Source: Cherax quadricarinatus (Eukaryota > Arthropoda > Malacostraca > Decapoda > Parastacidae). From it: a DNA stretch of 64,000 bases. This document shows positions 5,461-58,036 of the stretch, piece after piece. A model generated the notes under the pieces. That model did no database searches. It saw only the letters and a list, made by a program, of their open reading frames with translations, and had not been told where the DNA came from. How positions within the stretch are numbered: the stretch's first letter is position 1; the number at the start of each line of letters is the position of its first letter. Location: the NCBI RefSeq assembly GCF_038502225.1, contig NC_091323.1:28820845-28884844 (forward strand), written 5' to 3'. Position numbers and translations under genes: made by a program.

Positions 5461-8400
5461 GGTTTGTTGTGGTGGTGTATGTAAGACAGTTTGTTGTGAT
5501 GATGGCGGTGTATGTAAGACAGTTTGTTGTGATGGTGGTGGTGTATGTAAGACAGTTTGTTGTGATGGTGGTGGTGTATGTAAGACGGTTTGTTGTGATG
5601 GTGGTGGTGTATGTAAGACAGTTTGTTGTGATGATGGCGGTGTATGTAAGACAGTTTGTTGTGATGGTGGTGGTGTATGTAAGACAGTTTGTTGTGATGG
5701 TGGTGGTGTATGTAAGACAGTTTGTTGTGATGATGGCGGTGTATGTAAGACAGTTTGTTGTGATGGTGGTGGTGTATGTAAGACGGTTTGTTGTGATGAT
5801 GGTGGTGTATGTAAGACAGTTTGTTGTGATGGTGGTGGTGTATGTAAGACAGTTTGTTGTGATGATGGCGGTGTATGTAAGACAGTTTGTTGTGATGATG
5901 GCGGTGTATGTAAGACAGTTTGTTGTGATGATGGCGGTGTATGTAAGACAGTTTGTTGTGATGGTGGTGGTGTATGTAAGACAGTTTGTTGTGATGGTGG
6001 TGGTGTATGTAAGACAGTTTGTTGTGATGATGGTGGTGTATGTAAGACAGTTTGTTGTGATGATGGCGGTGTATGTAAGACAGTTTGTTGTGATGATGGC
6101 GGTGTATGTAAGACAGTTTGTTGTGATGGTGGTGGTGTATGTAAGACAGTTTGTTGTGATGGTGGTGGTGTATGTAAGACAGTTTGTTGTGATGATGGCG
6201 GTGTATGTAAGACAGTTTGTTGTGATGATGGTGGTGTATGTAAGACAGTTTGTTGTGATGGTGGTGGTGTATGTAAGACAGTTTGTTGTGATGATGGCGG
6301 TGTATGTAAGACAGTTTGTTGTGATGGTGGTGGTGTATGTAAGACAGTTTGTTGTGATGATGGCGGTGTATGTAAGACAGTTTGTTGTGATGGTGGTGGT
6401 GTATGTAAGACAGTTTGTTGTGATGGTGGTGGTGTATGTAAGACAGTTTGTTGTGATGATGGCGGTGTATGTAAGACAGTTTGTTGTGATGGTGGTGGTG
6501 TATGTAAGACAGTTTGTTGTGATGATGGCGGTGTATGTAAGACAGTTTGTTGTGATGGTGGTGGTGTATGTAAGACAGTTTGTTGTGATGGTGGTGGTGT
6601 ATGTAAGACAGTTTGTTGTGATGATGGCGGTGTATGTAAGACAGTTTGTTGTGATGGTGGTGGTGTATGTAAGACAGTTTGTTGTGATGATGGCGGTGTA
6701 TGTAAGACAGTTTGTTGTGATGGTGGTGGTGTATGTAAGACAGTTTGTTGTGATGGTGGTGGTGTATGTAAGACAGTTTGTTGTGATGATGGCGGTGTAT
6801 GTAAGACAGTTTGTTGTGATGGTGGTGGTGTATGTAAGACAGTTTGTTGTGATGATGGCGGTGTATGTAAGACAGTTTGTTGTGATGGTGGTGGTGTATG
6901 TAAGACAGTTTGTTGTGATGGTGGTGGTGTATGTAAGACAGTTTGTTGTGATGATGGCGGTGTATGTAAGACAGTTTGTTGTGATGGTGGTGGTGTATGT
7001 AAGACAGTTTGTTGTGATGATGGCGGTGTATGTAAGACAGTTTGTTGTGATGGTGGTGGTGTATGTAAGACAGTTTGTTGTGATGGTGGTGGTGTATGTA
7101 AGACAGTTTGTTGTGATGATGGCGGTGTATGTAAGACAGTTTGTTGTGATGGTGGTGGTGTATGTAAGACAGTTTGTTGTGATGATGGCGGTGTATGTAA
7201 GACAGTTTGTTGTGATGGTGGTGGTGTATGTAAGACAGTTTGTTGTGATGGTGGTGGTGTATGTAAGACAGTTTGTTGTGATGGTGGTGGTGTATGTAAG
7301 ACAGTTTGTTGTGATGGTGGTGGTGTATGTAAGACAGTTTGTTGTGATGATGGCGGTGTATGTAAGACAGTTTGTTGTGATGGTGGTGGTGTATGTAAGA
7401 CAGTTTGTTGTGATGGTGGTGGTGTATGTAAGACAGTTTGTTGTGATGGTGGTGGTGTATGTAAGACAGTTTGTTGTGATGGTGGTGGTGTATGTAAGAC
7501 AGTTTGTTGTGATGTGGTGTATGTAAGACAGTTTGTTGTGATGATGGCGGTGTATGTAAGACAGTTGGTGTATGTAAGACAGTTTGTTGTGGTGGTGGTG
7601 TATGTAAGACAGTTTGTTGTGATGGTGGTGGTGTATGTAAGACAGTTTGTTGTGATGATGGCGGTGTATGTAAGACAGTTTGTTGTGATGGTGATGATGG
7701 TGTATGTAAGACAGTTTGTTGTGATGGTGGTGGTGTATGTAAGACAGTTTGTTGTGATGGTGGTGGTGTATGTAAGACAGTTTGTTGTGATGATGGCGGT
7801 GTATGTAAGACAGTTTGTTGTGATGGTGGTGGTGTATGTAAGACAGTTTGTTGTGATGGTGGTGGTGTATGTAAGACAGTTTAAGACAGTTTGTGATGGT
7901 GGTGGTGTATGTAAGACAGTTTGTTGTGATGGTGGTGGTGTATGTAAGACAGTTTGTTGTGATGGTGGTGGTGTATGTAAGACAGTTTGTTGTGATGGTG
8001 GTGGTGTATGTAAGACAGTTTGTTGTGATGGTGGTGGTGTATGTAAGACAGTTTGTTGTGATGGTGGTGGTGTATGTAAGACAGTTTGTTGTGATGGTGG
8101 TGGTGTATGTAAGACAGTTTGTTGTGATGGCGGTGTATGTAAGACAGTTTGTTGTGATGGTGGTGGTGTATGTAAGACAGTTTGTTGTGATGGTGGTGGT
8201 GTATGTAAGACAGTTTGTTGTGATGGTGGTGGTGTATGTAAGACAGTTTGTTGTGATGGCGGTGTATGTAAGACAGTTTGTTGTGATGGTGGTGGTGTAT
8301 GTAAGACAGTTTGTTGTGATGGTGGTGGTGTATGTAAGACAGTTTGTTGTGATGGTGGTGGTGTATGTAAGACAGTTTGTTGTGATGGCGGTGTATGTAA

Positions 8401-11400
8401 GACAGTTTGTTGTGATGGTGGTGGTGTATGTAAGACAGTTTGTTGTGATGGTGGTGGTGTATGTAAGACAGTTTGTTGTGATGGTGGTGGTGTATGTAAG
8501 ACAGTTTGTTGTGATGGTGGTGGTGTATGTAAGACAGTTTGTTGTGATGATGGCGGTGTATGTAAGACAGTTTGTTGTGATGATGGCGGTGTATGTAAGA
8601 CAGTTTGTTGTGATGGTGGTGGTGTATGTAAGACAGTTTGTTGTGATGGTGGTGGTGTATGTAAGACAGTTTGTTGTGATGATGGCGGTGTATGTAAGAC
8701 AGTTTGTTGTGATGATGGCGGTGTATGTAAGACAGTTTGTTGTGATGGTGGTGTATGTAAGACAGTTTGTTGTGATGGTGGTGGTGTATGTAAGACAGTT
8801 TGTTGTGATGGTGGTGGTGTATGTAAGACAGTTTGTTGTGATGATGGCGGTGTATGTAAGACAGTTTGTTGTGATGGTGGTGGTGTATGTAAGACAGTTT
8901 GTTGTGATGATGGCGGTGTATGTAAGACAGTTTGTTGTGATGGTGGTGGTGTATGTAAGACAGTTTGTTGTGATGGTGGTGGTGTATGTAAGACAGTTTG
9001 TTGTGATGATGGCGGTGTATGTAAGACAGTTTGTTGTGATGGTGGTGGTGTATGTAAGACAGTTTGTTGTGATGGTGGTGGTGTATGTAAGACAGTTTGT
9101 TGTGATGATGGCGGTGTATGTAAGACAGTTTGTTGTGATGGTGGTGGTGTATGTAAGACAGTTTGTTGTGATGATGGCGGTGTATGTAAGACAGTTTGTT
9201 GTGATGATGGCGGTGTATGTAAGACAGTTTGTTGTGATGGTGGTAGTGTATGTAAGACAGTTTGTTGTGATGGTGGTGGTGTATGTAAGACAGTTTGTTG
9301 TGATGGTGGTAGTGTATGTAAGACAGTTTGTTGTGATGATGGCGGTGTATGTAAGACAGTTTGTTGTGATGATGGCGGTGTATGTAAGACAGTTTGTTGT
9401 GATGATGGTGGTGTATGTAAGACAGTTTGTTGTGATGGTGGTGGTGTATGTAAGACAGTTTGTTGTGATGGTGGTGGTGTATGTAAGACAGTTTGTTGTG
9501 ATGGTGGTGGTGTATGTAAGACAGTTTGTTGTGATGGTGGTGGTGTATGTAAGACAGTTTGTTGTGATGGTGGTGGTGTATGTAAGACAGTTTGTTGTGA
9601 TGGTGGCGGTGTATGTAAGACAGTTTGTTGTGATGGTGGTGGTGTATGTAAGACAGTTTGTTGTGATGATGGCGGTGTATGTAAGACAGTTTGTTGTGAT
9701 GGTGGTGGTGTATGTAAGACAGTTTGTTGTGATGATGGCAGTGTATGTAAGACAGTTTGTTGTGATGATGGCGGTGTATGTAAGACAGTTTGTTGTGATG
9801 GTGGTGGTGTATGTAAGACAGTTTGTTGTGATGGTGGTGGTGTATGTAAGACGGTTTGTTGTGATGATGGCGGTGTATGTAAGACAGTTTGTTGTGATGG
9901 TGGTGGTGTATGTAAGACTGTTGTGATGATGGCGGTGTATGTAAGACAGTTTGTTGTGATGGTGGTGGTGTATGTAAGACAGTTTGTTGTGATGATGGCG
10001 GTGTATGTAAGACAGTTTGTTGTGATGGTGGTGGTGTATGTAAGACAGTTTGTTGTGATGGTGGTGGTGTATGTAAGACAGTTTGTTGTGATGGTGGCGG
10101 TGTATGTAAGACAGTTTGTTGTGATGGTGGTGGTGTATGTTAGGTTAGGTAAGGTTCGTCAGGAAACAGGACAAATGTTTCTATGTAAGACAGTTTGTTG
10201 TGATGATGGCGGTGTATGTAAGACAGTTTGTTGTGATGGTGGTGGTGTATGTAAGACAGTTTGTTGTGATGGTGGTGGTGTATGTAAGACAGTTTGTTGT
10301 GATGGTGGTGTTGTATGTAAGACAGTTTGTTGTGATGATGGCGGTGTATGTAAGACGGTTTGTTGTGATGATGGTGGTGTATGTAAGACAGTTTGTTGTG
10401 ATGGTGGTGGTGTATGTAAGACAGTTTGTTGTGATGATGGCGGTGTATGTAAGACAGTTTGTTGTGATGGTGGTGGTGTATGTAAGACGGTTTGTTGTGA
10501 TGATGGCGGTGTATGTAAGACAGTTTGTTGTGATGGTGGTGGTGTATGTAAGACAGTTTGTTGTGATGATGGCGGTGTATGTAAGACAGTTTGTTGTGAT
10601 GGTGGTGGTGTATGTAAGACAGTTTGTTGTGATGGTGGTGGTGTATGTAAGACAGTTTGTTGTGATGGCGGTGTATGTAAGACGGTTTGTTGTGATGGTG
10701 GTGGTGTAAGACAGTTTGTTGTGATGGTGGTGGTGTATGTAAGACAGTTTGTTGTGATGGTGGTGGTGTATGTAAGACAGTTTGTTGTGATGATGGCGGT
10801 GTATGTAAGACGGTTTGTTGTGATGGTGGTGGTGTATGTAAGACAGTTTGTTGTGATGGTGGTGGTGTATGTAAGACGGTTTGTTGTGATGGTGGTGGTG
10901 TATGTAAGACAGTTTGTTGTGATGGTGGTGGTGTATATAAGACGGTTTGTTGTGATGATGGCGGTGTATGTAAGACGGTTTGTTGTGATGGTGGTGGTGT
11001 ATGTAAGACAGTTTGTTGTGATGATGGCGGTGTATGTAAGACGGTTTGTTGTGATGATGGTGGTGTATGTAAGACAGTTTGTTGTGATGGTGGTGGTGTA
11101 TGTAAGACAGTTTGTTGTGATGATGGCGGTGTATGTAAGACGGTTTGTTGTGATGTTGGTGGTGTATGTAAGACAGTTTGTTGTGATGATGGCGGTGTAT
11201 GTAAGACGGTTTGTTGTGATGTTGGCGGTGTATGTAAGACAGTTTGTTGTGATGGTGGTGGTGTATGTAAGACAGTTTGTTGTGATGATGGCGGTGTATG
11301 TAAGACGGTTTGTTGTGATGTTGGCGGTGTATGTAAGACAGTTTGTTGTGATGGTGGTGGTGTATGTAAGACAGTTTGTTGTGATGGTGGTAGTGTATGT

Positions 11401-13125
11401 AAGACAGTTTGTTGTGATGGTGGTGGTGTATGTAAGACAGTTTGTTGTGATGGTGGTGGTGTATGTAAGACAGTTTGTTGTGATGGTGGTGGTGTATGTA
11501 AGACAGTTTGTTGTGATGATGGCGGTGTATGTAAGACAGTTTGTTGTGATGGTGGTGGTGTATGTAAGACAGTTTGTTGTGATGGTGGTGGTGTATGTAA
11601 GACAGTTTGTTGTGATGGTGGTGGTGTATGTAAGACAGTTTGTTGTGATGATGGCGGTGTATGTAAGACGGTTTGTTGTGATGTTGGCGGTGTATGTAAG
11701 ACAGTTTGTTGTGATGGTGGTGGTGTATGTAAGACAGTTTGTTGTGATGGTGGTGGTGTATGTAAGACAGTTTGTTGTGATGGTGGTGGTGTATGTAAGA
11801 CGGTTTGTTGTGATGGTGGCGGTGTATGTAAGACAGTTTGTTGTGATGATGGCGGTGTATGTAAGACAGTTTGTTGTGATGGTGGTGGTGTATGTAAGAC
11901 GGTTTGTTGTGATGGTGGTGGTGTATGTAAGACAGTTTGTTGTGATGGTGGTGGTGTATGTAAGACAGTTTGTTGTGATGGTGGTGGTGTATGTAAGACA
12001 GTTTGTTGTGATGATGGCGGTGTATGTAAGACAGTTTGTTGTGATGGTGGTGGTGTATGTAAGACAGTTTGTTGTGATGATGGCGGTGTATATAAGACAG
12101 TTTGTTGTGATGGTGGTGGTGTATGTAAGACAGTTTGTTGTGATGATGGCGGTGTATGTAAGACGGTTTGTTGTGATGGTGGTGGTGTATGTAAGACAGT
12201 TTGTTGTGATGGTGGTGGTGTATGTAAGACAGTTTGTTGTGATGGTGGTGGTGTATGTAAGACGGTTTGTTGTGATGTTGGCGGTGTATGTAAGACAGTT
12301 TGTTGTGATGGTGGTGGTGTATGTAAGACGGTTTGTTGTGATGATGGCGGTGTATGTAAGACGGTTTGTTGTGATGGTGGTGGTGTATGTAAGACAGTTT
12401 GTTGTGATGGTGGTGGTGTCTGTAAGACAGTTTGTTGTGATGGTGGTGGTGTATGTAAGACAGTTTGTTGTGATGGTGGTGGTGTATGTAAGACAGTTTG
12501 TTGTGATGGTGGTGGTGTATGTAAGACAGTTTGTTGTGATGATGGTGGTGTATGTAAGACAGTTTGTTGTGATGGTGGTGGTGTATGTAAGACAGTTTGT
12601 TGTGATGGTGGAGGTGTATGTAAGACAGTTTGTTGTGATGGTGGTGGTGTATGTAAGACAGTTTGTTGTGATGATGGCGGTGTATGTAAGACAGTTTGTT
12701 GTGATAGTGGTGGTGTATGTAAGACGGTTTGTTGTGATGGTGGTGGTGTATGTAAGACAGTTTGTTGTGATGGTGGTGGTGTATGTAAGACAGTTTGTTG
12801 TGATGGTGGTGGTGTATGTAAGACAGTTTGTTGTGATGGTGGTGGTGTATGTAAGACAGTTTGTTGTGATGGTGGTGGTGTATGTAAGACAGTTTGTTGT
12901 GATGGTGGTGGTGTATGTAAGACAGTTTGTTGTGATGGTGGTGGTGTATGTAAGACAGTTTGTTGTGATGGTGGTGGTGTATGTAAGACAGTTTGTTGTG
13001 ATGGTGGTGGTGTATGTAAGACAGTTTGTTGTGATGGTGGTGGTGTATGTAAGACAGTTTGTTGTGATGGTAGTGGTGTATGTAAGACAGTTTGTTGTGA
13101 TGGTGGTGGTGTGTGTAAAACAATT
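5461..13125. repeat. 33-bp minisatellite, about 230 copies, 7.7 kb
   Basis: The unit contains GTATGTAAGACAGTTTGTTG followed by TGATGGTGGTGGT or TGATGATGGCGGT. Because 33 is a multiple of 3, several frames stay open for hundreds to thousands of codons on both strands. The longest plus frame spans 5450-13174, but within it the repeat changes register (a Cys/Lys-rich version becomes a Val/Arg-rich one after about 7510 and again later). The frame therefore follows copy length, not selection on protein. Shortened units near 7510-7600, 7880, 9920 and 10700 mark deletions. A foreign 41-bp piece sits at 10141-10181. Confidence 0.96.
10136..10186. other. 41-bp TTAGG-bearing insert with 5-bp duplication
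   Basis: The 33-bp array is interrupted by bases 10141-10181, which begin TAGGTTAGGTAAGGTTCGTC and end in ACAAATGTTTC. TATGT occurs just before (10136-10140) and just after (10182-10186), where an uninterrupted unit would have it once. The insert starts with a telomere-like TTAGG motif. Confidence 0.75.
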
Positions 13126-13177
13126 CGTTTGGCTGAGGAGGGTGGTGATGGTTCCAGTCAGTTCTGATGGTTAAAGA

Positions 13178-27457: not shown

Positions 27458-30400
27458 TCAGTGGAAGTCCTCTTTCCTTTCCTCTTCCTTTTCTTCTTCC
27501 TCTTCATCTTTCCCTACCTCTTCTTCCTCTTCCTCTTCAGATTTCTTTTCCGAAGTAGTTTGCGTCTCTTCCCATTCGTAATTTGTTCTTTTCAGTTCTA
27601 CACTTGGATCTTCTAAGTCAGGTACAAAATTTTCGGCACCATCTCTGTTTCCCAGGTGCGTGAAGAAGTCACTTATTTTCAGCTTCCACACTGGAGCGAC
27701 GCCATTACACCATAAAAATAGCTCTCGATCACACTTGTCACATACTAAAGAATCCGGAACACATGGATGAGGCCATTTCCGATTTTCATGGAGTTCTCTT
27801 GGTAGCATAAAGAGAAGATATAAGTCGATACACGCTCGCGCACTAACTCTCCCAATTGCGGTGAACACCTGTTTTAACTTGTGGGAGCGCCATTTTGAGT
27901 AATTGGACACGTCGAATTGGCTGTCGGTATGGTAAGCATACGGGTCTTCGTCCGAATCGTTTTCGTCATTCGGATATACATAGCCTTAACCTTTAATCCG
28001 TCTATATAATACACTAGCCGAGGCATCGCAGACTTTGCGCAGATTTTCAGATTCAACTTCGGCATAGCATATACGTTTAGGTTTACTCTCAGATGCCACA
28101 TCTTATGATTCCCCAAGGACATCTCTTCCCCTCTTCCTTGAATTTTCTTCAATTTCTTTTTTATCTACGCCAGCAAAAAGGATACCATATATCCGTTTAT
28201 ATTAATCATCATACAGATCTTGATATACCTCTTCAAATAATTCTACAGGTATATGTTTATCAATTTTCTTGCGGATATAATAGGCTCTGTCCCAATTGAT
28301 GAGGGGTAACTTAACCTTTTCAAGTTCACCTGAAACTATAGGCATATTAATAGGAAGGATTTCAGATTTATCGTTCGGAAATTCGATTGTTTCAAGACGT
28401 AAGTTGATATTCTGTTTCAAGTTTATATCATTAATTATGATTTCGCATAACTGTTCAAGTAAGAACTGAGCTCGGGTCTGTGGTAACTCTTTTTGGGCGT
28501 CCTCAACCTGATCCTTGTTTAACTCTTCCAGTATAAAATCTGGATTATTTTTCATCTCTTTGTAGATAAGCTTCATTAATATATTCCAGTAACATGGATT
28601 GGAGACATCAGGTATAGAATTATCGGAATCTACATTCGATTCCTCAGATGAATTTTGAGGTGATGAATCTTGTGGTGAGTTTTGTGTTGGTGAATTTTGT
28701 GGTAAATTTTGAGGTGAATTTTGTGGTAAATTTTGAGGTGAATTTTGTGGTAAATTTTGAGGTGAATTTTTAAGTGGTGAATTTTGAGGTGAAGTCTCAC
28801 ACGAACTCGTAGCTGGCTCTTTGTCTGACATTTTGGATGATTCTTTACGTAGATCAAAAAACTTTTAGAGTATAAGCTTTAATATTTCTTTACAGTGTTA
28901 TTTTAGAACACCGTATGATGGGTCTTCCTTAAAACTGTCTTCTTCTTCAGGTACATCAAGGGATTTATCAAGGTATTCTGGAGATAGGGATTTATCAGGG
29001 TGTTCTGGAGATAGGGATTTATCAGGGTGTTCTGGAGATAGGGATTTATCAGGGTATTCTGGAGATAGGGATTTATCAGAGTATTCTGGAGATAGGGATT
29101 TATCAGGGCATTCTGGAGAAAGGGATTTATCAGGGCATTCTGGAGAAAGGGATTCATCTTCAGGTAAATGCCCAGTGGAATCTACATGCTCTTCTGGTGA
29201 AGAAAGTATAGGTGATTCCTTATCAGAAGAATGATCTTCAAAGTCTTCCTCTGACTCGTCTGAAAATTTATCTTCCTCTTCCTTTGTAATATTCACTATC
29301 GTTTTCGAAATCATTTGATAGGCACGTAATCGCTGTTAATCATAAGTGTAAGACTTACCTACATTATTTTTATAATCTTCGTAGCAGACGTTAACAAACT
29401 CCCAAATGCGATTTGGTGATGATGACTTGACAATTCTCTTTATTTAGGGTGGGGATAGCCTCATCAGATCCTCGTCGATGTTCAGACGATCTGTATCAGG
29501 ATGTCGGTGGCGTCTTGTGTTAATCTCATCTTCAGATTCATGATCACCTTCACGACCCAGGTCATCACTTGACTTGCCCAGAGATAAGTATAACATATTT
29601 TCAGCCCTCTTCTCAACCGTATCCATTTCTGATTCTGCTTCTTGGAATTCATCAGAAACTTTCCTTGTCTCCTCCTCTTGAATATCACTTTCAGACCCGG
29701 AATTAACTTCCATATCGTCTCTAGAGTTGTATGGGAATACCTATGGTGCCATAGGAAGAGGTACGATAGGAAGAGGTACCATGCAACATGGGCCGCCACC
29801 GCTTGACTCTATGTCCGCATCGTAATGTGAATCAGGTAACTGATTAACATCATTGTTTCTCCATTGACCGTCAGAATCATCTTGCTGACTAGAGGAACTA
29901 TCCTCTGATTTACTGTCAGGTTAATTATCAAACTCACCAGCTGATTCAATGTCAGCGTCATTGGCTTAATCACTCGTAGAACCATCATAACATTCACTTT
30001 CATTATCCCCTTCACATCCCTTTTCGTATATAGTTTCAAGAAAAGATTTACAGTCAAGAAGAGTAGGTTCGTGCTTGCGCTGCTTGCTCTTCTTCCTCTT
30101 CTTGCACTTCTTGCCACCTTTATGGCGAACTTCTTGGTCATCCTTAAGGTTAGTTTTCTGGCCAGCTTTACAGAGAGCTTTACAGTTAACTTTGCCCTTA
30201 GCTTTGTTGTTGGCCTTACCCTTGATGTCGTCATCTGTGGAATCGTAGGCAGTGATTTTGGCTTTCTTGCTTTCTCCATTATAGGAATCATCGCGTTTTC
30301 TTTTCTTTATATTTTGATTGTTATTTTCTATTGGTTTATTAATTTTTGTTTCATCGGGAGTGATTTTTGCCTTCTTACTTTCTCCATTATAGGAATCATC

Positions 30401-33055
30401 GCGTTTTCTTTTCTTTATATTTTGATTATTGTTTTTTATTGGTTTATCAGTTTCTTTTGTTTCATCGGGAGTGATTTTTGCCTTCTTACTTTCTCCATTA
30501 TAGGAATCATCGCGTTTTCTTTTCTTTATATTTTGATTATTGTTTTTTATTGGTTTATCAGTTTCTTTTGTTTCATCGGGAGTGATTTTTGCCTTCTTAC
30601 TTTCTCCATTATAGGAATCATCGCGTTTTCTTTTCCTTATATTTTGATTATTGTTTTTTATTGGTTTATCAGTTTCTTTTGTTTCATCGGGAGTGATTTT
30701 TGCCTTCTTACGTTCACCTTCATCAGAATTAACGTCTGTTTCATTGTCTGTATTATCACTGAATCGATCATAATCTCTGGCCGACTCTTTACTCCTTTTA
30801 TTAGTTATAATTTTTTTTCTCCAATATCCTCTATGGTACTTTTTCTTATACCATATCTTTTGTTAATCAAGTTCATCGTCTGCCTCGTACTGGGGCTCAA
30901 ATTGATTATTTTCCCTCTCATCTTCATCAGAGGTCGTGTCGAACTTGAAAAAACTGTCATTGTCGAATTCATTTGGTGTCGACTATGGGCTTTCTTTCTT
31001 AGGGTAACACCAAATACGCGGTGACGGATATCTGAGGAATTATTTTAAATAGTTGTTATAGATTTTTTCTAACCACAAGTCATGCCTCTTCATATCGTAT
31101 GTAGTGTAAAAATCTCTTCTTCTGGCTCGTTCTTTGAGTATTGCGTCTTTAGCGCGTGGCCAGTCTGCCAGGATGCATTGAGAGTTCCAGTGCATTGTAG
31201 TTCTCTCTTTATTGGTGGGGCGCCATATGCTTCTCTTCCGTATTCTGATTTTACATGCTTCAAAACCATCTCCCCTCAAGGAAGGTTCCTCGATACAGGT
31301 GAGGGACTCATGATCTAGGGAATTGGATTTGAATTAAGCCTGAATACTTTCCACATGCCTCCGCAGGCGCTGTATAATACTACGGGTTTAGCGCTTTCCC
31401 CTTGATTATTGTAATTCATAAGCATCTTGATATTCATCATCTTTGGCAGAAGTATTCTCCTGACGTTCGTCTTCTTCGTCAGAAATATCCTCTCTTCGGT
31501 AAAAGGTATCCCCTCTTCGGTAAAAGGGATCCTCTTCAAGAGAATCTTCACTAAGGGTATCCTCCAAATACGTGTTTTCACAACTCTCAGCTTCAGAACT
31601 TAGCAGCGTCTCTTCTTCGCTAGGAGTATACCCCAAAAATAATTTTTCCTAACTGTCAAGGTCAGAACTTAACAGCGTATCCTCTTCGCTAAGAGTATCT
31701 TCCAAATATATATTTTCATCACTTTCAGTTTCAGAACCTTCTGGCGTCTCGCTAACTTATTCTTCTTCCTCTGAAACGCTGGCTAACTAATATATGACTT
31801 GCTCAAACTCGGAGTCGTCGTCGTCAGCGTCATACACCACCTTGCAGAACTACGTGTATTCGACAATATCAGAAGTTTCTTCAAGGAACTCCGATTCTTC
31901 GCTGTCCGTTTTAGAAAATTCGTCAGTTTTAGTAAATTCCTAAACAGATTATAATGAGTCAGTGTCAGTTCCTGATATCTGAAGTTCACATTCTTAATTT
32001 TCATTTTACAAAGAATCAATATTTTTACCACGGGTAGAAAAATCAATGTCTTATTCTTCCAATTCTTCCTTATAAGGACTGGAAGATGTGTCACAGTCAT
32101 AGAAGTTTGTCTTCGGCACTAGGTTTTCATCTAAAAATTTCAAGCGATGGTGAAAATATTTTGTGTAAATGTCATAGAATTTGAATTTGTCCCCCTTATA
32201 GCAATTGGGATAGAGTCCGGAAAATACCTTCTGATATGATTATTTATCCAAATCTTTTGTATATTTCTGTAGTATGTTGTCTATGAGGTCGTTGTCGTCA
32301 AGATTCATATCAAAACAATTAAATAAATTATTTTGCTTCGTTGTAGCCTCAAAGAAAATGTACAAGTTATCCTTGAGGTATTCTTGCTAAGCAAATTCTT
32401 TCGAAATTAAAAACGACCCTTCCTTCTATATGTGTTCTGACACACGATGAAATACCTCGTTTTAGTTTTGAATATTATTCATAAACGGATTATACACCGA
32501 TGTTATGTTTTATTCGAAACATTTATTATTTTTATGAAGGTGCCTTGTTTGTTGTTTTTTATGTTTAGTAATCTAAATTATCTTTGGTGGAAGTTTCAGA
32601 ACTGTGTATTTTCCTGTGTTACGAACAAGATCATCTGGTATAATAAACTAATCTGTTGGTGCATTTTCTGGTAAAATAGACTGAAATATTGGTAAAATTG
32701 TATTTATTGCATTTTATTCTACATTAGTCTATTTATCATCAGATTATATTAGACCAGGTTATTTAAATAAATTTTGGCCATCGGTAGAGGGTAGTGGTGT
32801 AAAGTTTTGATCTAGCACGCCCTGTATCTATTGTTGAGTGTGTTCCTGCAGGCCACTGACTGAGCCACTGTTAATGTTGTTATCCACAACATCATCCACA
32901 AACCCAGCATACTCCACAGCCTTAACATTATGCATTACTTCCTCGCTGGATTTATTTTCCTACTAATCCTCACTCACGGTATCTATTATCCGTCCTGGCC
33001 GTAATTTAGGCATAACTTACGACTCACTGTTTTTCTCGGTTTACTTATGCATCAT
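27458..33055 (-). CDS. Intronless acidic repeat protein read through TAA/TAG
   Basis: One minus-strand frame of 1,866 codons runs without a frameshift from ATG at 33055 to TGA at 27460-27458. Inside it, not counting an inserted SINE, lie 38 stop triplets: 24 TAA and 14 TAG, no TGA. Reading them as glutamine (the ciliate-type code) gives continuous, sensible protein across every stop. The product is hydrophilic and rich in Glu, Asp, Ser, Lys and Asn. Parts in order: an N-terminal region dense in TAA/TAG (33055-31650); acidic Ser/Glu stretches; a SINE at 31273-31412; a conserved-looking Trp/Arg-rich segment (31270-31043); four 37-residue units with KKRKRDD; nine-residue SLSPE repeats; eight-residue PQNSPQNL repeats; a Leu/Ile-rich domain (28600-28205); a Cys-containing segment (CDKCDRE); and a poly-Glu tail. 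I do not recognise a family or an enzyme motif. Possible sources are ciliate DNA, an element or virus with a changed code, or a gene depending on stop suppression. Whether it is expressed is unknown. Confidence 0.6.
28661..28800 (-). repeat. 24-bp (8-residue) PQNSPQNL repeat in recoded gene
   Basis: Tandem GGTGAATTTTGTGGTAAATT units on plus encode repeated Pro-Gln-Asn-(Ser/Leu) blocks on minus. Here glutamine is written CAA, so ordinary Gln codons coexist with the in-frame TAA/TAG codons. Confidence 0.85.
28958..29152 (-). repeat. 27-bp (9-residue) SLSPE repeat in recoded gene
   Basis: About seven tandem copies of a unit read on minus as DKSLSPE plus two variable residues (CP, YS, YP or HP). 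Every copy is 27 bp, so the frame is kept. Confidence 0.9.
30271..30715 (-). repeat. 111-bp (37-residue) NLS-like repeat, four units
   Basis: TTTCTCCATTATAGGAATCA recurs at 30271, 30379, 30490 and 30601, giving periods of 108, 111 and 111 bp, then a partial unit. On minus the unit reads KKRKRDDSYNGES, then KKAKITPDETKETDKP, then a basic/Asn-rich linker. The KKRKR cluster and the KKAK cluster resemble nuclear localisation signals. The opposite strand gives a hydrophobic open frame that is only the shadow of this one. Confidence 0.9.
31273..31412 (+). mobile_element. SINE-like repeat inserted in the recoded frame
   Basis: The text CCCCTCAAGGAAGGTTCCTC through GAATTGGATTTGAATTAAGC to CTACGGGTTTAGCGCTTTCC and a TTGATTATTGTAA tail is a dispersed repeat I recognise from decapod genomes. 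It lies within the 27.46-33.06 kb frame. Its minus-strand reading adds three TAA triplets and no TGA, and the host frame continues in the same phase on both sides. The insertion argues that the locus is integrated in animal DNA and not a contaminating contig. Confidence 0.7.
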
Positions 33056-33108
33056 TTATAACAAGATTTTTTTCACCTTGAAAACAACTTAGACAATGTA
33101 TACGAGAT

Positions 33109-33124
33109 GCTTTATTATATACTG
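33109..33124 (-). promoter_or_regulatory. TATA-like box of recoded gene 1
   Basis: The minus strand reads AGTATATAATAAAG about 56-67 bp upstream of the ATG at 33055. It is followed by GCATCTCGTA and a leader ending TTGTTATAAATG. The same box, spacing and leader occur upstream of the damaged copy that starts at 35494, so the block is conserved between paralogues. No initiator or intron is evident. Confidence 0.55.
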
Positions 33125-33189
33125 TATGCGAATATAGACTTAGGTTGGAAAAACTTCATTAAGTGCATATGGTAGTATATGCGAGCGTG

Positions 33190-33305
33190 GTACTGTCAGT
33201 ACTGAAATAACTATAGTGACGTAAGTAGTGATAATTGTAGTTACATTAGTGATAACAGGAGTGATAGTGGTAACAGTAGTGATGGCAGTAGTGGTGATAA
33301 TTATA
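33190..33305. repeat. Short AGTGATAACAG-type repeat block
   Basis: Degenerate repeats of GTAGTGATAA with AGTGATAACAGGAGTGATAG, a smaller version of the array at 33545-34695. Confidence 0.7.
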
Positions 33306-33544: not shown

Positions 33545-34695
33545 ATTAGTGAATAATAGTGACGGACAGTAGTGGTCAAATACCAGTGACTGTAGTGATA
33601 ATACCAGTGACTGTAGTGATGATAACAGCAATGACTGTAGGGATGATAAAAGCAGTGAATGTAGTGATGCTAATCGAGAATATAGTGATGATAATAGTGA
33701 ATAGAGATGACATACGGGAATTTAGTGATAATAGCAGTGACTGTAGAGATAATAGTGTGTAGTGATAATAGCAGTGACTAGTGATGATAATAGTGGCTGT
33801 AGTGATAATAGCACTGACTGTAATAAAAGATGTGACTGTTGTGATTATAATAGCAGTTACGGTAGTGAAAATTGCAGTGACTAGTCCTGATAATAGCAGT
33901 GACTGTAGGTATGATAATAGCAGGGACTGTAGTAATGATAATAGCAGTGACTGTAGGGATAATAACAGTTATTGTAGTGATAATTCCAGTGAAAATAGTG
34001 ATGATAATAGCAGGGACTGTAGTGATGATAGCAGTGACTGTAGTGATGATAATAGTTATTGTAGTGACAATAAGAGTGACTAGTTATGATAATAGTAGTG
34101 ACTGTAGTGATAATAGTAGTGACTGTAGTGATGATAATAGTTATTGTAGTGATAATAGCAGTAACTGTAGTGATGATAATGCCAGTAACTGTAGTGATGA
34201 TAATAGCGTTATTGAAGTGATGATAATAGTTATTGTAGTTATAATAATAGCAGTGACTAGTTATGATAATAGGGGTGACTGTAGTGATAATAGCAGTGAC
34301 TGTAGTGATAATATCAGTTACTGTAGTGGTTATAATAGCGGTTATTGTAGTGATGATAATAACAGTGACTGTAGTGATGATAATAACAATGTAGCGATAA
34401 TAGCAGTGACTAGTGATGATAATAGCAGTGATTGTAGTGATAATAGCAGTGGCTGTAGTGGTGATAATAGCAGTTATTGTAGTGATGATAACAGTGACTG
34501 TATTGATGATAATAGCTGTGACTAGTGATAACAGTGACAGTAGTGAGGATAATAGCAGTGCTTGTAGTGGTGATAAAAACATTGACAGTAGTGATGATAA
34601 TAATGTAGTGATCTTAATAGCAGTGGCAGTAGTGATGATAAAAGCAGCGACTGTAGTGATAGTGGTGATAAAAGCAGAGACTAATGATGATAATA
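33545..34695. repeat. Degenerate AGTGACTGTAGTGATAATAGC array
   Basis: Irregular 12-27 bp units built from AGTGACTGTAGTGATGATAA with TAGC or CAGT. Plus-strand frames are Asp/Ser/Cys-rich and minus-strand frames Ile/Thr/His-rich; both are composition effects. A second block of the same type lies at 35640-37510. Confidence 0.85.
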
Positions 34696-35494
34696 GCATT
34701 GACAGTAGAGTTGAGGCTGCCTGCAACTTTGCCATGCTACAGCTGTATTTATGCAGCCCCACAAATAGTGACTTGGGTTACACTTTCACCAAGAAGATTT
34801 TTAATTTCATCTTCCCTATCTGGGAGATAGTCCGATTCATCTCTGGTGTCGAGTTTCACTTTAGGTCCCTCTAAATTCACATAATGTTTAACGAATTTAA
34901 AAACCTCCGTTTATGAAAAAGGGTCGTAATATTAGGACCATGAACGTCCTTTTGTAGGATCTATCTCAAGAACTTTTCGTTTACTCTCTAACATTTTAAG
35001 TTAGCCCTGATTGTCCAACTTTTGGCGTTTTCTACATTTATAGTCAGATATTTTCTTTATTCGGTGTTGTTTTCCCAAAGTCGATACCGGGAAGCTATAA
35101 TCTAGATCTGTGTAGGTCATCATATCCTAACCTCGGTGATGAACCATTAGACATCCCTGATTCAGCACTTGTGGAAACAAAGTTCCCGCTATTGAAGACC
35201 TCACTAAACCTCTACAGGACATAATACTTTTGATTTCTTTTGTTTGAGGGTATACAGGAACTTTAACCCTTTTGATGACCTTTATCAACAGTGTCGCTGT
35301 CGTCCATGTCACTGTTGTCACTCTCACTATCAGTGTCACTGTTTTCAGTGACACTATTCTCATCATCAATAGACTCGACACTAATCATAACTTCCTCGCT
35401 GGACTTGCTCTTTTCCTCTTCCTCACTCACAGTATCTCTCCCGTCCTGACATAAATTAGTACTGGCTGGTTTTCTTTGTATTCTTATCCACCAT
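34696..35494 (-). pseudogene. Second copy of the recoded gene family (damaged)
   Basis: The copy starts with ATG at 35494 in the same leader context as gene 1 and shares its first residues (M-x-x-K-x-T pattern), including an in-frame TAA at codon 13. Two frameshifts follow, near 35440 and near 35280. The middle frame encodes DTVSEEEEKSKSSEEVM, resembling the DTVSED and KSSEEVM segments of gene 1, then an Asp/Ser-rich stretch. The last frame (35381 to about 34700) contains TAG at 35129, TAA at 35003, 34934, 34913 and 34751, and TAG at 34739, with no TGA. Its end reads KLDTRDESD and DREDEIKNLLGE before running into the tandem array. Apart from codon use it has no recognisable function. It looks like a truncated paralogue or a neighbouring member with another C-terminus. 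Confidence 0.55.
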
Positions 35495-35545
35495 TTATAA
35501 CAATAATTTGTTTGATCTTCAAAACTTAGAAAATATTTACGAGAT

Positions 35546-35560
35546 GCTTTTTTATATGTC
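35546..35560 (-). promoter_or_regulatory. TATA-like box of recoded gene 2
   Basis: The minus strand reads CATATAAAAAAGCATCTCGTA, matching the gene 1 element, 54-65 bp before ATG 35494. The leader TTGTTATAAATG is identical to that of gene 1. Confidence 0.5.
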
Positions 35561-35639
35561 GAGTGTAAATATTTAGTAAGGTTGGAATCACTTCATTATT
35601 CTCATACAGGCGTGTATACAAGCATAGTAATACAGTAAA

Positions 35640-37510
35640 TAGGGATAATTGTTGTTACATTTGTGATAACAGGAGTGACAGTATTGATAAAGTAGTGATG
35701 TGATAATTCTCGTGACAATAGTGAATGCCTGTGACTGCACTTATGATAATAGTGACTGTAGGGATGATAGCGACTCTAGTAATCATAATAGCAGTTACTG
35801 TAGTGATGATAATAGCTGTGATTCTGGTGATGGATAATAGTGACTGTAGTGATGGTAATAGCAGTTATTGTAGTGATAATAGCAGTGATTGTAGTTACGA
35901 AAATTATAGTGACTGTAGTGATTATAATAGCAATTACTGTAGTGATGATGAAAGCAGTGACTAGAGATGATAATAGCAGTGAGAGTAGTGAGGATAATAT
36001 CAGTGACTGTAGTGATGACAAAAGCAGTTACTGTAGTGATGATAATAAGTTATTGTAGTGATAATAGCAGTGACTGTAGTGATAATGGCAGTAACTGTAG
36101 TGATAATAGCAGTTATTGTAGTGTTGATCATAGCAGTGACTGTAGTGATGATAATAGCAGTGACTGTAGTGATAATAGCAGTGACAGTAGTGAGAATAGT
36201 GACAGTCATGATAAAAGTAACTGTAATGGTTATAAAAATGTTGACAAGTGATAATAGCAGTGACTAGTGATAATAGCAGTGACTGTAGTGATAATAGCAG
36301 TTATTGTAGTGATAACAGAAATGATTGTAGTGTTGATAATAGTGGTGATTGTAGTGATGATAGATGTGACTGTAGTAATGATAATAGTGACTGTAGTGAT
36401 GGTAATAGCAGTTATTGTAGTGATAATAGCAGTTTTGTAGTTATGATAATTGTAGTGACTGTAGTAATTATAATAATTACTTTAGTGAGGATAACAGCAG
36501 TGACTGTAGTGATAATCGCACTAACTGTAGTGATAACAGCAGTTATTGTAGTGTTGATAATAGCAGTGACTGTAGTGATGATAATAGTGACTGTAGTGAT
36601 GATAACAGTTATTGTAGTGATAATAGTGACTAGTGATAATCGCAGTAACTGTAGTGATAACAGCAGTTATTGTAGTGTTGATAATAGCAGTGACTGTAGT
36701 GATGATAATAGTGACTGTAGTGATGATAATAGCAGTGACAGTAGTGAGAATAGCAGTGACAGTAGTCATGATAAAAACAGTGACTGTAGTGGTTATAGAA
36801 ATTTTGACTGAAGCGATAATAGCAGTGACTGTAGTGATGGTAATAGCAGTTATTGTAGTGATAATAGTAGTGATTGTAGTTACGAAAATTATAGTGACTG
36901 TAGTGATTATAATAGCAATTACTGTAATGATGATGAAAGCAGTGACTAGAGATGATAATAGCAGTGAGAGTAGTGAGGATAATAGCAGTGACTGTAGTGA
37001 TGATAAAATCAGGTACTGTAGTAATGATAATAGTAATTGTAGTGATGATAATAGCAGTTATTGTAGTGATGATAATAGCAGTGACTGTAGTGATAATAAT
37101 AGCGTTATTGAAGTGATGATAATAGTTATTGTAGTTATAATAATAGCAGTGACTAGTTATTATAATAGGGGTGACTGTAGTGATAATATCAGTTACTGTA
37201 GTGGTTATAATAGCAGTTATTGTAGTGATGATAATAACAGTGGCTGTAGTGATGATAATAACAGTGGCTGTAGCGATGATAACAATGTAGCGATAATAGC
37301 AGTGACTAGTGATGATAATAGCTGTGACTAGTGATAACAGTGACAGTAGTGAGGATAATAGCAGTGCCTGTAGTGGTGATAAAAACATTGACAGTAGTGA
37401 TGATAATAACAGTGTAGTGATCTTAATAGCAGTGGCAGTAGGGATGATAGTGATGATAAAAGCAGCGACTGTAGTGATAGTGGTGATAAAAGCTGAGACT
37501 AATGATGATA
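35640..37510. repeat. Second degenerate AGTGACTGTAGTGATAATAGC array
   Basis: The same family as 33545-34695. Several stretches repeat inside it (for example around 36540 and 36660), and 36950-37510 closely matches 33950-34700, so a block of the region has been tandemly duplicated. Confidence 0.85.
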
Positions 37511-37685
37511 ATAGCATTGACAGTAGAGTTGAGGCTGCCTGCAACTTTGCCATACTACAGCTGTATTTATGCAGCCCCACAAATAGTGACTTGGGTGCAC
37601 TTTCACCAAGAAGATTTTTAATTTCATCTTCCCTATCTGGGAGATGGTCCGATTCATCTCTGGTGTCGAGTTTCACTTTAGGTCT
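37511..37685 (-). pseudogene. Third, partial copy of recoded-family C-terminus
   Basis: Matches 34700-34870 almost base for base. The minus strand reads KLDTRDESDHLPDREDEIKNL followed by the same text, with a 1-base difference that changes the frame after GES. Upstream sequence stops at about 37685, where a Penelope-tail region begins. It is the other end of the tandem duplication. Confidence 0.7.
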
Positions 37686-42742: not shown

Positions 42743-44157
42743 ATATAAACACATATGCAGTATAATGTGATCCTTTATTGACTACGTTTCGCCCACACAG
42801 TGGGCTTTTTCAAGTCACAAACAGAACTACCTGGGGTGGAAGGAACGCGAGTATTTATAGTCAGGTTCAGAATGCTGAGGTCAGGTGGAGAATGCTGCAT
42901 CCGATGATGTACCGAGTGGGGTTATAGAGTCTAAAATCTTGGGTAGCTTGGAAAGGAGATTGAATAAGTTTGTGAGCAGACCTTCTACAGTGTTCTTATG
43001 TGGGATAGCGATGAAGAAGTTTCTTGGCAAGTGGTTCAGCTATGTTGTAGAAGCCACTATTCTGGTTGAAGTTGTCGGATATAGAAATAAGTGATGATTC
43101 CAGGATTCTTCGGTATTGAGTGTTGTCTTCTGTGGCGATAAGTCTTGAGTTTCTGTAGTTTATCAAGTGGTTGTGTGAATTACGGTGTTGTACGCAGGCA
43201 TTCCTTGTGTCGTCAGACCTGCTTGCGTATTGGTGTTCTGAAATACGTGTTTGGAGGTCCCTTGATGTTTCGCCCACGTATAACTTGTTGCAGTCATTAC
43301 AAGGGATTATGTATACCCCTGCAGAGGGTGGAAGCTTGTCCTGTCTATCACTGGTAATGTCCTTGATGGTCGTGGTTGTGGAGGTAGTTACTTGAAATGA
43401 GGTATTGGAAAAGATGTTGGAAACGTGTTTGGCAATGGAGTTGGTGGGGAGGACTATGTATCTCTTCTCGGCAGTGTCTTCTCTGGGTGTGTTGAAGATG
43501 TTTAATGCCCGTCGTCTGCAGTCTCTGATGAAGTGACGAGGATAGTGGAGTTTAGAAAATACTTGTTCAATCATCGTGCATTCTTCTTCAAGAAACTCAT
43601 TGCTGCAGATTCTGAGTGCACGCAGGAAGAAGCCTATAATTACACCACGTTTGGTTTTGGTGTCGTGGTGAGAGTAAAAGTGGAGAAGATCGTTTTGGTT
43701 GGTGGGTTTTCGATAGACTTTAAAACGAAGTTCGTGGTCAGCTTTGCAAAGCAGAACATCAAGGAAAGAAAGAGTGTTGTCGACTTCTTCTTCAAGTGTG
43801 AACTGGATTGAAGGCTCGACCTGGTTGAGCTTGTCTTGGAGAGCTTGAACATTGAAGCGTTTAGGAGTTATGAGGAGAATGTCGTCAACATAACGGAACC
43901 AGGTGACAGACGAAGGAATAATGGTGGAGAAACGTTCGGCTTCTAGATGTTCCATGTATAGGTTCGCCAGGACCGCACTGAGTGGCGAACCCATGGGTAG
44001 TCCAAAAGTCTGCTGAAAGAGGTGATTTTCGAAAGAGAAACACGTAAAGCCAACACATAGTTCAACAAGGTCGATGAAATCGCTGGCTAGAATGGGAAGA
44101 TCAAGTGAATCGTCAATTTTCCTGAGCAAGAGATCGATGGCTTGTGTAGTAGGTACT
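42743..44157 (-). mobile_element. Penelope-like element, left (minus) copy
   Basis: Reading leftwards: a truncated 5' end near 44157, RT and endonuclease, a stop at 42996, then a 3' tail with CCCACTGTGTGGGCGAAACG (42783-42802, complement), GTAGTCAATAAAGGATC and GTGTTTATATTC. The arm is a near-perfect inverted copy of 44158-45553, with a spacer of about 50 bp (44107-44158) that belongs to this longer left copy. Confidence 0.9.
42996..44129 (-). CDS. Penelope-like RT with GIY-YIG endonuclease (5'-truncated)
   Basis: A 377-codon open frame, part of a longer frame that runs upstream to about 44157. It holds the second half of a Penelope-type reverse transcriptase: FGLPMGSPLSAVLANLYME, then RYVDDILLI (the catalytic YxDD), LSFLDVLLCK and VYRKPTNQNDLLH. 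A C-terminal GIY-YIG nuclease follows: GVYIIPCNDC, KLYVGETSRD and LQTRISEHQYA. Such enzymes nick DNA and prime reverse transcription at the cut. The N-terminal RT fingers are missing, so the copy cannot encode a full enzyme, although the remaining frame has no stop. It differs from the right copy at only about five residues, so the pair is young. Confidence 0.9.
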   Translation of the reverse strand: MLRKIDDSLDLPILASDFIDLVELCVGFTCFSFENHLFQQTFGLPMGSPLSAVLANLYMEHLEAERFSTIIPSSVTWFRYVDDILLITPKRFNVQALQDKLNQVEPSIQFTLEEEVDNTLSFLDVLLCKADHELRFKVYRKPTNQNDLLHFYSHHDTKTKRGVIIGFFLRALRICSNEFLEEECTMIEQVFSKLHYPRHFIRDCRRRALNIFNTPREDTAEKRYIVLPTNSIAKHVSNIFSNTSFQVTTSTTTTIKDITSDRQDKLPPSAGVYIIPCNDCNKLYVGETSRDLQTRISEHQYASRSDDTRNACVQHRNSHNHLINYRNSRLIATEDNTQYRRILESSLISISDNFNQNSGFYNIAEPLAKKLLHRYPT

Positions 44158-45263
44158 TTGATCTTCCCATTCCAGCCAGCGATTTCATCGACCTTGTTGA
44201 ACTATGTGTTGGCTTTACGTGTTTCTCTTTCGAAAATCACCTCTTTCAGCAGACTTTTGGACTACCCATGGGTTCGCCACTCAGTGCGGTCCTGGCGAAC
44301 CTATACATGGAACATCTAGAAGCCGAACGTTTCTCCACCATTATTCCTTCGTCTGTCACCTGGTTCCGTTATGTTGACGACATTCTCCTCATAACTCCTA
44401 AACGCTTCAATGTTCAAGCTCTCCAAGACAAGCTCAACCAGGTCGAGCCTTCAATCCAGTTCACACTTGAAGAAGAAGTCGACAACACTCTTTCTTTCCT
44501 TGATGTTCTGCTTTGCAAAGCTGACCACGAACTTCGTTTTAAAGTCTATCGAAAACCCACCAACCAAAACGATCTTCTCCACTTTTACTCTCACCACGAC
44601 ACCAAAACCAAACGTGGTGTAATTATAGGCTTCTTCCTGCGTGCACTCAGAATCTGCAGCAATGAGTTTCTTGAAGAATGCACGATGATTGAACAAGTAT
44701 TTTCTAAACTCCACTATCCTCGTCACTTCATCAGAGACTGCAGACGACGGGCATTAAACATCTTCAACACACCCAGAGAAGACACTGCCGAGAAGAGATA
44801 CATAGTCCTCCCCACCAACTCCATTGCCAAACACGTTTCCAACATCTTTTCCAATACCTCATTTCAAGTATCTACCTCCACAACCACGACCATCAAGGAC
44901 ATTACCAGTGATAGACAGGACAAGCTTCCACCCTCTGCAGGGGTATACATAATCCCTTGTAATGACTGCAAGAAGTTATACATGGGCGAAACATCAAGGG
45001 ACCTCCAAACACGTATTTCAGAACACCAATACGCAAGCAGGTCTGACGACACAAGGAATGCCTGCGTACAACACCGTAATTCACACAACCACTTGATAAA
45101 CTACAGAAACTCAAGACTTATCGCCACAGAAGACAACACTCAATACCGAAGAATCCTGGAATCATCACTTATTTCTATATCCGACAACTTCAACCAGAAT
45201 AGTGGCTTCTACAACATAGCTGAACCACTTGCCAAGAAACTTCTTCATCGCTATCCCACATAA
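44142..45263 (+). CDS. Penelope-like RT with GIY-YIG endonuclease (right copy)
   Basis: A 373-codon frame matching the left copy: LPMGSPLSAVLANLYMEHLE, RYVDDILLI near 44366, VYRKPTNQND, then the GIY-YIG domain with GVYIIPCNDC and KLYMGETSRD near 44940-45010. Differences from the left copy include a missing Glu in the EEECTMIE run, Pro for Leu near the start, and Lys/Met for Asn/Val in the GIY-YIG motif. The start used here lies in the spacer; coding homology begins at about 44158. Truncation makes it non-autonomous. Confidence 0.9.
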   Translation: MCSRYFDLPIPASDFIDLVELCVGFTCFSFENHLFQQTFGLPMGSPLSAVLANLYMEHLEAERFSTIIPSSVTWFRYVDDILLITPKRFNVQALQDKLNQVEPSIQFTLEEEVDNTLSFLDVLLCKADHELRFKVYRKPTNQNDLLHFYSHHDTKTKRGVIIGFFLRALRICSNEFLEECTMIEQVFSKLHYPRHFIRDCRRRALNIFNTPREDTAEKRYIVLPTNSIAKHVSNIFSNTSFQVSTSTTTTIKDITSDRQDKLPPSAGVYIIPCNDCKKLYMGETSRDLQTRISEHQYASRSDDTRNACVQHRNSHNHLINYRNSRLIATEDNTQYRRILESSLISISDNFNQNSGFYNIAEPLAKKLLHRYPT

Positions 45264-55242: not shown

Positions 55243-56307
55243 TGTGGAGAAATTTTCTCCAGGAGGGGGGTATCAGCCCCCTTCAGCCCCCTTTAGCCCT
55301 GAGGGGCCCAGCCCTCTCAGAAGGGGCAAATATCTTGTTTACTGCTACAGTGAGTAATTGATCACAGATGCCGTACGAGTATGCGACGTGGTCAAGCGTC
55401 CGATGCTCCTTGCAGTCCAGTGTTGCAGAGTGTATTTTAATAAGAGACAGTACATCTCTTACTTTAGCAGGACAATTAAGGAAAATCCTGCTCCCACTTT
55501 ATTACCATGGTAAAGATAGTGGACATTGTTATCTATGCTTAAGACAGCAAGAATCAAACATTCTGCTTTGCTTCATCGAGGAAGTGGCAAGGAAGGAAAA
55601 GTACTAGGTCAGCTTTTCCTTTGTGCTAGGGGAGTAACGGTGTGGGGTGCTGTGGCGTCTTCAGATTACTTTTGACTCTACTGAGAGTGACACTGACGCC
55701 AGGATAACCAACAAAAAACACGGATCCGTACGTTAGTGTGAACAAAGTATCTCATAAAACACAATAAACACTTAAGAGAAGTGTGATCAGCTTCTTTAGT
55801 TATAAGATTGTGAACAATGAAGACAAATCTTGTGGAACATAGTGTACCAGTGTGCGTATTCCTAGACTATGGGAGACGTGGACATCCAAGGACACTTCAG
55901 CTTCTATCAAGTCACCGATACCTGTCGAAGGTGTGAAGAACACCATAGCTCACGCTACAAGAGCAAGGTAGGTTACGAATTTCTTGTAGTACGGGGGACT
56001 GCGCAGTTCTTGAGTCGCAAGGAGTTTGTAATCAACCTATAGTCGGCAGTAAGGTGCAGACTTTTGAGTCCAAACAAGTACATAATTTGTCAGCAATCAG
56101 TGAATGAAATATGCTGACATAACACCCCCTAGGGGTAATTTATTGTTTACAAATTATAACTCATTTCCAGCCCGTTGAGAGAGGACTTCGACAGCTTCTC
56201 AAGACCTCGTCTGCAGGGGCGGCTGTGCAGGCGATGAGCTGTCTTTCTAAGTTAAGTTTTCCCTATACCAACTGTTTAAGCTTAACTGGTAATCCCATTT
56301 CTCAACA
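55243..56307 (+). mobile_element. Probable solo LTR, 1,065 bp
   Basis: A non-repetitive block sits inside the array. It begins TGTGGAGAAATTTTCTCC and ends CATTTCTCAACA, so the ends are TGT...ACA and the outer 10 bp are inverted repeats with one mismatch. GGTGG lies immediately outside on both sides (55238-55242, 56308-56312), consistent with a 5-bp target duplication, though the array itself is GGTGG-rich. An AATAAA (about 55763) could be the LTR polyadenylation signal. A 79-codon frame at 55368-55607 has no recognisable motif. No internal retroelement genes adjoin it. Orientation is a guess. Confidence 0.6.
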
Positions 56308-56712
56308 GGTGGTGATAGTGGTAGTGATAGTAGTGGTGGTGATAGTGATGGGTGATGCTAATGGTGGTGATAGTGGTAGTGGTGATGGTGGATGGTGATA
56401 GTGGTAGTGATAGTGGTGGATGATAGTGGTATTAGTGGTGATAGTGGGAGTGATGATAGTGATGGGTGGTGATAGTGGTAGTGGTGGTGATGGTGCGTGG
56501 TGATAGTGGTTGTGGTGGTGGTAGTGATTGTTGGTGATAGTGGTGGTGATGGTGGGTGGTGATAGTGGCAGTGGTGGTGGTAATAGTGGTAGTGGTGATG
56601 GTGGGTGGTGGTAGTGGTGGTGGAGGTGATAATAGTAGGGGTGGTAGTGATACGGGCAGTGAGTAATAGTAAGTGGTGATGGCGATAAGTATTGGTGATT
56701 ACTTGTGATAGT
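56308..56712. repeat. GGTGATAGTGGTAGT array, part 3
   Basis: The array resumes after the LTR with the same unit and fades by about 56712. Confidence 0.9.
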
Positions 56713-56787
56713 GGTAGTGACATTAGTTATTCTTTCAGAGTGTCCAGAGTTCATCTCTCTCAGGAAAGATCAGACGTGGCTACGGAG

Positions 56788-56795
56788 AGAGAGAG

Positions 56796-56850
<55 letters not shown>
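56788..56850. repeat. (GA)n microsatellite
   Basis: GAGAGA repeats broken once by GATAGATA near 56800. Confidence 0.95.
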
Positions 56851-57385: not shown

Positions 57386-57783
<398 letters not shown>

Positions 57784-57992: not shown

Positions 57993-58033
57993 TTTTCTTC
58001 ATTCATTTACATATTTTATTACAATTTTATTCA

Positions 58034-58036
<3 letters not shown>

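Follow-up and report, generated by a model that had tools for sequence, protein, structure and literature searches.

In-frame UAA and UAG codons in a chromosomal gene family of an arthropod-like genome: evidence for a glutamine reading with UGA as stop

A long interrupted frame and the SINE within it

The window analyzed here is a 64,000-nucleotide stretch of DNA on scaffold C32 (37 Mb), part of a genome of 3.95 Gb. Its minus strand contains a 1,866-codon frame, gene A (27458..33055), that holds 41 in-frame TAA or TAG codons (TAR) and closes with a TGA at 27460-27458. A codon tally from 33055 to 27458 gave 27 TAA and 14 TAG, with the final codon as the sole TGA; three of the TAA (31408, 31390 and 31336) are contributed by a SINE. 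An earlier note on this DNA, which it took to be apparently decapod, had described a minus-strand frame of this length ending in TGA, with 24 TAA, 14 TAG and no TGA outside the SINE, and our recount agrees with it on each point. If TGA alone is counted as a stop, the frame is already open further upstream, from 33367, and spans 1,969 codons. Over gene A, the remaining two minus-strand frames contain 18 and 142 TGA codons. Long open frames alone prove nothing in this window, since a 33-bp minisatellite of ~232 copies at 5469-13129 keeps frames longer than 2,500 codons free of TGA on both strands. Elsewhere, a segment of ~10 kb (window 55245-62857 and beyond) is repeated ~76 kb leftward, at window-equivalent positions -20895 to -10720. 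Most of its aligned pieces are 97-100% identical, and by this measure it is a recent segmental duplication.

Codon usage was scored in 60-codon segments. Among the three frames of its own strand, gene A ranked top in 28 of 31 segments, and there were three near ties. In six-frame scoring it was top in only 14 of 31, with a reverse-strand frame top in 17, a result that we ascribe to the strong bias of the gene A strand toward A and G. All 12 of the periods that Tandem Repeats Finder reported inside gene A are multiples of three, compared with 8 of 21 periods copied by hand from the rest of its list. They include minus-strand, in-frame repeats of 111 bp (37 codons; 30251..30715), 27 bp (9 codons; 28959..29158) and 24/27 bp (NSPQNLPQ; 28649..28793). 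The predicted product is an acidic, basic and repeat-rich protein in which a Pfam scan found nothing at the cut-off. The earlier note had suggested a protein search; queries with the last 760 and first 671 residues, 8,000 candidates being scored for each, returned no relatives in the protein database, nor did a scan of viral contigs with the C-terminal 400 residues. The genome DNA matches to 27461-29300, among those listed, are confined to the repeat and Glu-rich stretches of gene A. One match in the PDB, to coagulation factor V, covers the 27-bp tandem repeat and was dropped.

The SINE body (31272..31414, minus strand) carries its three in-frame TAA, no TGA and one deletion relative to other copies, which at 15 nt is a multiple of three. 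It is flanked by 13-nt target-site duplications, AGATG[C/G]TT[A/T]TGAA, on the left at 31415..31427 and on the right at 31259..31271 (both minus strand), which match at 11 of 13 bases and are offset by 156 nt, or 52 codons. The gene A frame is intact across the SINE despite the three inserted TAA. A first look yielded 3,284 candidate SINE copies genome-wide, of which 40 were scored; the rows listed besides that of gene A itself numbered 41, two of them second pieces next to copies already included, and 39 copies were aligned. The body in gene A differs by 11.8% (16/136) from the consensus of these 39. Fourteen of the 39 lie more than 6% from that consensus, and the gene A body differs by 8.8% (12/136) from a consensus built on this most diverged group. 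It has the diagnostic bases of these 14 older copies, which are themselves 2-6% from their own consensus, and the nearest copy among those listed is 10.1% different from it. The SINE consensus has two of its six frames free of TGA. The base changes that are the gene A SINE's own have a mixed spectrum and, in an alignment read by eye, mostly change amino acids; the SINE stretch thus shows an open frame without residue constraint.

Two neutral frameshift rates were available for comparison. Repeat pairs 80-97% identical in the surrounding 264 kb, which are not mutually independent, gave 0.085 frameshifts per substitution (351/4,128), and the SINE copies had 18 frameshifting indels per 264 substitutions. 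At 9% divergence these rates predict 34 and 43 frameshifts in gene A, and none is seen. Simulated neutral decay of gene A to the same extent produced ~5 new TGA codons, with a probability of 0.003-0.005 of producing none. These missing frameshifts and TGA codons indicate that the frame was held open after the SINE's TAA codons arrived, and, judged against the neutral expectation, the gene A frame is not the product of ordinary decay.

A helicase gene family with the same stop pattern

Gene A shares its 5' region with a second gene. The promoter-like TATAATAAAGCATCTCGTATACAT of gene A (33096..33119, minus strand) is common to a tandem array of helicase genes and to a decayed fragment of the same gene inside the window, and the leader and first codons of gene A (32908..33245, minus strand) are ~70% identical to the leader of the array. 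The fragment, copy B (34715..35690, minus strand), is a 5' part of the helicase gene that is ~91% identical to the array, has frameshifting indels and has TAR positions in common with it; a motif search placed its promoter-like element at 35533..35556 (minus strand). Gene A, copy B and four array copies all have the motif TATAAWAAAGCATCTCRTAWAYAT in their upstream sequence. Beyond these, the genome has one site, with two mismatches, on scaffold C84, and a control search with the reversed pattern gave 2 genome matches, which puts the C84 site at chance level. A second helicase-gene fragment (37480..37684, minus strand) is 97.6% identical to part of copy B. Both fragments are flanked by a degenerate TGATAATAGCAGTGACTGTAGTGA-type satellite (window 33579-37449), which they enter at an identical point, and similar sequence also occurs within the array unit.

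The 5.3-kb tandem array occupies window-equivalent positions 95696-120367, ~32-56 kb past the window's right end and about 60 kb from gene A. Its gene (hereafter C; L024:4918-2720, minus strand) has 733 codons, with 9 TAA, 7 TAG and a sole TGA as the last codon; neither an internal TGA nor a frameshift was seen. The pieces of C between TAR codons were searched separately, and those from the helicase core matched the profiles NF045503 (1.3e-13), TIGR00603 (3.9e-10) and PF16203 (1.9e-7) of the XPB/ERCC3/RAD25 superfamily-2 helicases. Walker A, DEVH and motif VI are present, and by its profile matches C is an XPB/RAD25-like helicase. Decay can be seen at the edge of the array: its last units (L026, window-equivalent 116924-120367) are truncated, and in one of them codon 562, which is TGG in C, reads TAG.

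Matches to one helicase piece fell at 10 places, five in the array, one in copy D (scaffold C35), two in copy E (C32, 29.45 Mb) and two in copy F (C32, 22.9 Mb), and the loci D, E and F were chosen on this basis. Frameshifting indels are found in B, D, E and F, and TGA codons in D, E and F; copy B has none. Most TAR positions of C recur in these copies: of the 16 after the first ATG, 14 are matched by a TAR in one or more of copies B, D, E and F, including across different scaffolds, and each of codons 195, 287, 444, 549 and 635 is covered by three or four loci and is TAR in all of them. The terminal TGA is aligned in C, E and F. At other TAR columns the paralogues swap TAR with CAR (codons 102, 202, 350, 629 and 660), with GAR (172, 177, 350 and 594) or with other codons, including TTG and TGG. 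The decaying copies have 23 in-frame stops at which they differ from C (2 in B, 10 in D, 5 in E and 6 in F, with codons 346 and 712 each counted in two copies), of which 5 are TGA and 18 TAR. This 5/23 compares with 0 TGA among the 57 internal stops of gene A and C (Fisher P 0.0014); the absence of TGA among the 14 shared stops taken alone is not significant (P 0.13).

The earlier note had proposed comparing substitutions between copies, and such a comparison sets the helicase gene C apart. Polarised by D and F, its branch has an N:S of 32:32, against a neutral ratio of 2.92 (binomial P 2e-5), while the other branches have 77:26 (D), 44:8 (E) and 121:51 (F). Removing all stop-bearing columns left 30:29 for C, 72:24 for D and 119:42 for F. 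On the C branch, it is the helicase core that carries the signal (22:23); there are few changes and no clear constraint in the N-terminal part (9:3 with B and D, 6:4 with B and F, 8:6 with D and F). These counts point to purifying selection on the C branch, and D, E and F look neutral. Because this selection acted with the TAR codons present, the lineage of the array gene was most likely functional while carrying them.

Amino acid assignment and decoding machinery

We searched the protein database with the array gene, writing X at each TAR, and found 1,467 relatives among 7,998 scored candidates, of which the best 120 were examined. The closest of these, P0001, is 41% identical (E 7e-91); the remaining XPB-type rows among the best 120 are 30-35% identical to the array gene. 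In a tree, the array gene and P0001 group together (100/100) on very long branches, apart from 23 other XPBs. Nine TAR columns are aligned with P0001, which has Q at four (codons 549, 594, 629 and 635) and T, L, H, E and Y at the other five. Its background of Q in columns with neither TAR nor CAR is 12/422, making the excess at TAR columns significant (P = 7e-5), and it has Q in 7 of 11 CAR columns of the array gene. In the best 120 of the 1,467 rows, a set that includes P0001, the residue at codon 549 is Asp in 118, at codon 594 Asn in 110, at codon 635 Leu in 119 and at codon 629 Gln in 120. Gln at codons 549, 594 and 635 is therefore unusual and, if TAR is read as Gln, common to P0001 and the array gene. 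Scored by BLOSUM62 against P0001, Gln fits the TAR columns best (18), followed by Glu (7); against the other XPBs, Gln (1.0) is barely above Lys (0.8). TAR codons would make up a similar share of Gln codons in both genes, 0.406 in gene A and 0.421 in C. Taken together, the comparisons make it well supported that UAA and UAG are sense codons in this small gene family, and the TAR columns of the array gene suggest that their meaning is most likely Gln.

The surrounding genome appears to follow different rules. Eight further long frames without TGA were translated from the 264 kb; three have nothing recognizable, and five we take by eye to be transposon-like. All five were selected by treating TGA alone as a stop. 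Four of them (1,521, 983, 728 and 569 codons) are free of internal TAR and terminate at TAG or TAA. The fifth (locus L018, window-equivalent -26122 to -23234, plus strand) has 963 codons with TAR at 134, 342, 479 and 908 and no TGA, after which the phase is apparently shifted. Its four TAR are probably due to chance decay, and it shows that short TGA-free decay does happen. Since transposon frames mostly lack TAR, the general code of the host looks standard. Within the window, five transposon ORFs end in TAA or TGA; having been picked by standard stops, they are uninformative on internal TAR. Near-identical ORFs of 377 and 373 codons form an inverted repeat at window 42996-45263, with what we take, by eye, to be reverse-transcriptase-like and GIY-YIG-like motifs.

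We also looked for machinery that might read these codons. The suppressor tRNAs that the earlier note suggested seeking did not appear: an exact genome pattern for tRNA-Gln with anticodon UUA or CUA gave 0 matches, compared with 21 for the native type. ARAGORN, run on 24 sources (the window, 20 flanking loci and 3 paralogue loci), predicted no tRNA at all. When a second eRF1 was sought by its first domain, C66 had two matches and C48 one; the gene family lies near none of them.

Origin of the family and alternative explanations

Considering gene A and the array helicase together, we think it probable that they belong to one chromosomal family in which UAA and UAG encode Gln and UGA is the stop, within an arthropod-like genome that uses the standard code. 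The reading of UAA and UAG as Gln and UGA as stop is the main idea of the earlier note, and it has gained from a second gene with the same motif and stop pattern, from selection on the C branch, from TAR codons shared between copies and from the Gln columns of P0001. Judging by how divergent the helicase is and by the promoter-like motif common to both genes, the family may be a virus-derived or selfish element. Whether it is a resident element of this kind whose private code is read in the animal's own cells is, in our judgment, an even call. Under such a reading, UAR would be decoded as Gln within host cells, as suggested by the gene A frame, which outlived the insertion of a host SINE. The decoder that we prefer would be a tRNA-Gln, either one of the host's own, misreading the first base of the codon, or a UUA/CUA tRNA that escaped detection, and decoding may occur in a tissue or stage with weakened release at UAR.

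The main rival is that an outside agent, a DNA virus or parasite with UAR as Gln, was captured repeatedly, leaving chromosomal copies that are dead and an array that is the youngest capture. D, E and F do look neutral since leaving the C lineage, the pairing of the helicase with P0001 on long branches far from 23 other XPBs fits a foreign source, and the promoter-like motif is common to genes for unrelated proteins. However, a single scaffold holds four of the five helicase loci (the array, B, E and F), and the array is itself tandemly duplicated, a pattern that looks like duplication within the chromosome. Moreover, gene A holds a host SINE 9-12% old without a frameshift, arguing that it was maintained within reach of jumping host SINEs. 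Viral contigs scanned with the C-terminal part of gene A or with P0001 contained no relative, and with the helicase piece as the query four loci matched only along a short DEVHHLPA stretch. We consider repeated capture a distinctly less probable account than a chromosomal family read with this code, and one that still carries appreciable weight.

It is very improbable that the genes once used the standard code and simply decayed, with TGA codons and frameshifts missing by luck. TAR is the commonest random stop in such A-rich codons, as the 18 of 23 in the decaying copies illustrate; such copies (B, D, E and F) do exist, and the neighboring 963-codon frame acquired four TAR without a TGA. Yet decay at 9% should have left ~5 TGA codons and 34-43 frameshifts in gene A, the C branch was under purifying selection with its TAR in place, the paralogues share TAR positions, and P0001 has Gln at TAR columns.

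C-to-T change had been put forward in the earlier note as CpA-to-TpA hypermutation. CAA or CAG is indeed one C-to-T step from TAA or TAG, and the overall CpA observed/expected ratio of gene A (0.88) is lower than in its flanks (1.10-1.22). The low value stems from codon positions 1-2, where CpA is 0.63 and TpA is also low (0.59), whereas CpA at positions 2-3 is 1.03, with no depletion. CpG is less depleted in gene A (0.82) than in five flanking stretches (0.35-0.60). With CpA undiminished at positions 2-3, a mixed spectrum of changes in the SINE, TAR columns that alternate with GAG, GAA, TTG and TGG, and the same TAR on different scaffolds, hypermutation or an assembly or base-calling fault is the least probable origin of the TAR codons and can be given almost no weight.

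Recent ciliate DNA, another possibility raised earlier, was dropped given the host SINE inside the gene A frame and the relatives of the helicase, among which the named rows of the best 120 of 1,467 (many rows are nameless) include no ciliate.

Stop-codon reassignment is known from whole nuclei of protists and from phages in bacteria; in the literature searched at the level of titles and abstracts, we found no report of it in an animal chromosome. The closest match in meaning is the code of NCBI table 6, used by ciliates, Hexamita and others, which has the same inferred assignments, UAR at Gln positions and UGA as terminator. Those organisms use the code throughout the nucleus. In the present DNA, internal TAR codons are missing from four of the five transposon-like frames examined close by, which terminate at TAG or TAA, and a host SINE sits inside gene A. 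Recoded phages with code 15 (PMC9523058) read TAG as Gln with predicted suppressor tRNAs. They resemble the present family in having an element-specific code with a Gln meaning in a standard-code host, here judged from sequence alone; they differ in being found in bacteria and in recoding TAG only, compared with both UAA and UAG, an animal-like chromosome and no suppressor tRNA found in our case. Endogenous nimaviruses are likewise virus-derived genes in crustacean chromosomes (PMC10871703), and the main text of that report makes no mention of XPB, genetic code or stop codon.

If the reading of a resident element with a private code is true, the host would have a tissue, a stage or a state made by the element in which UAR is decoded as Gln. 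A standard-code animal genome would then carry genes that are readable only with another code and that standard annotation would discard as pseudogenes, and the question of two codes in one cell would become directly testable.
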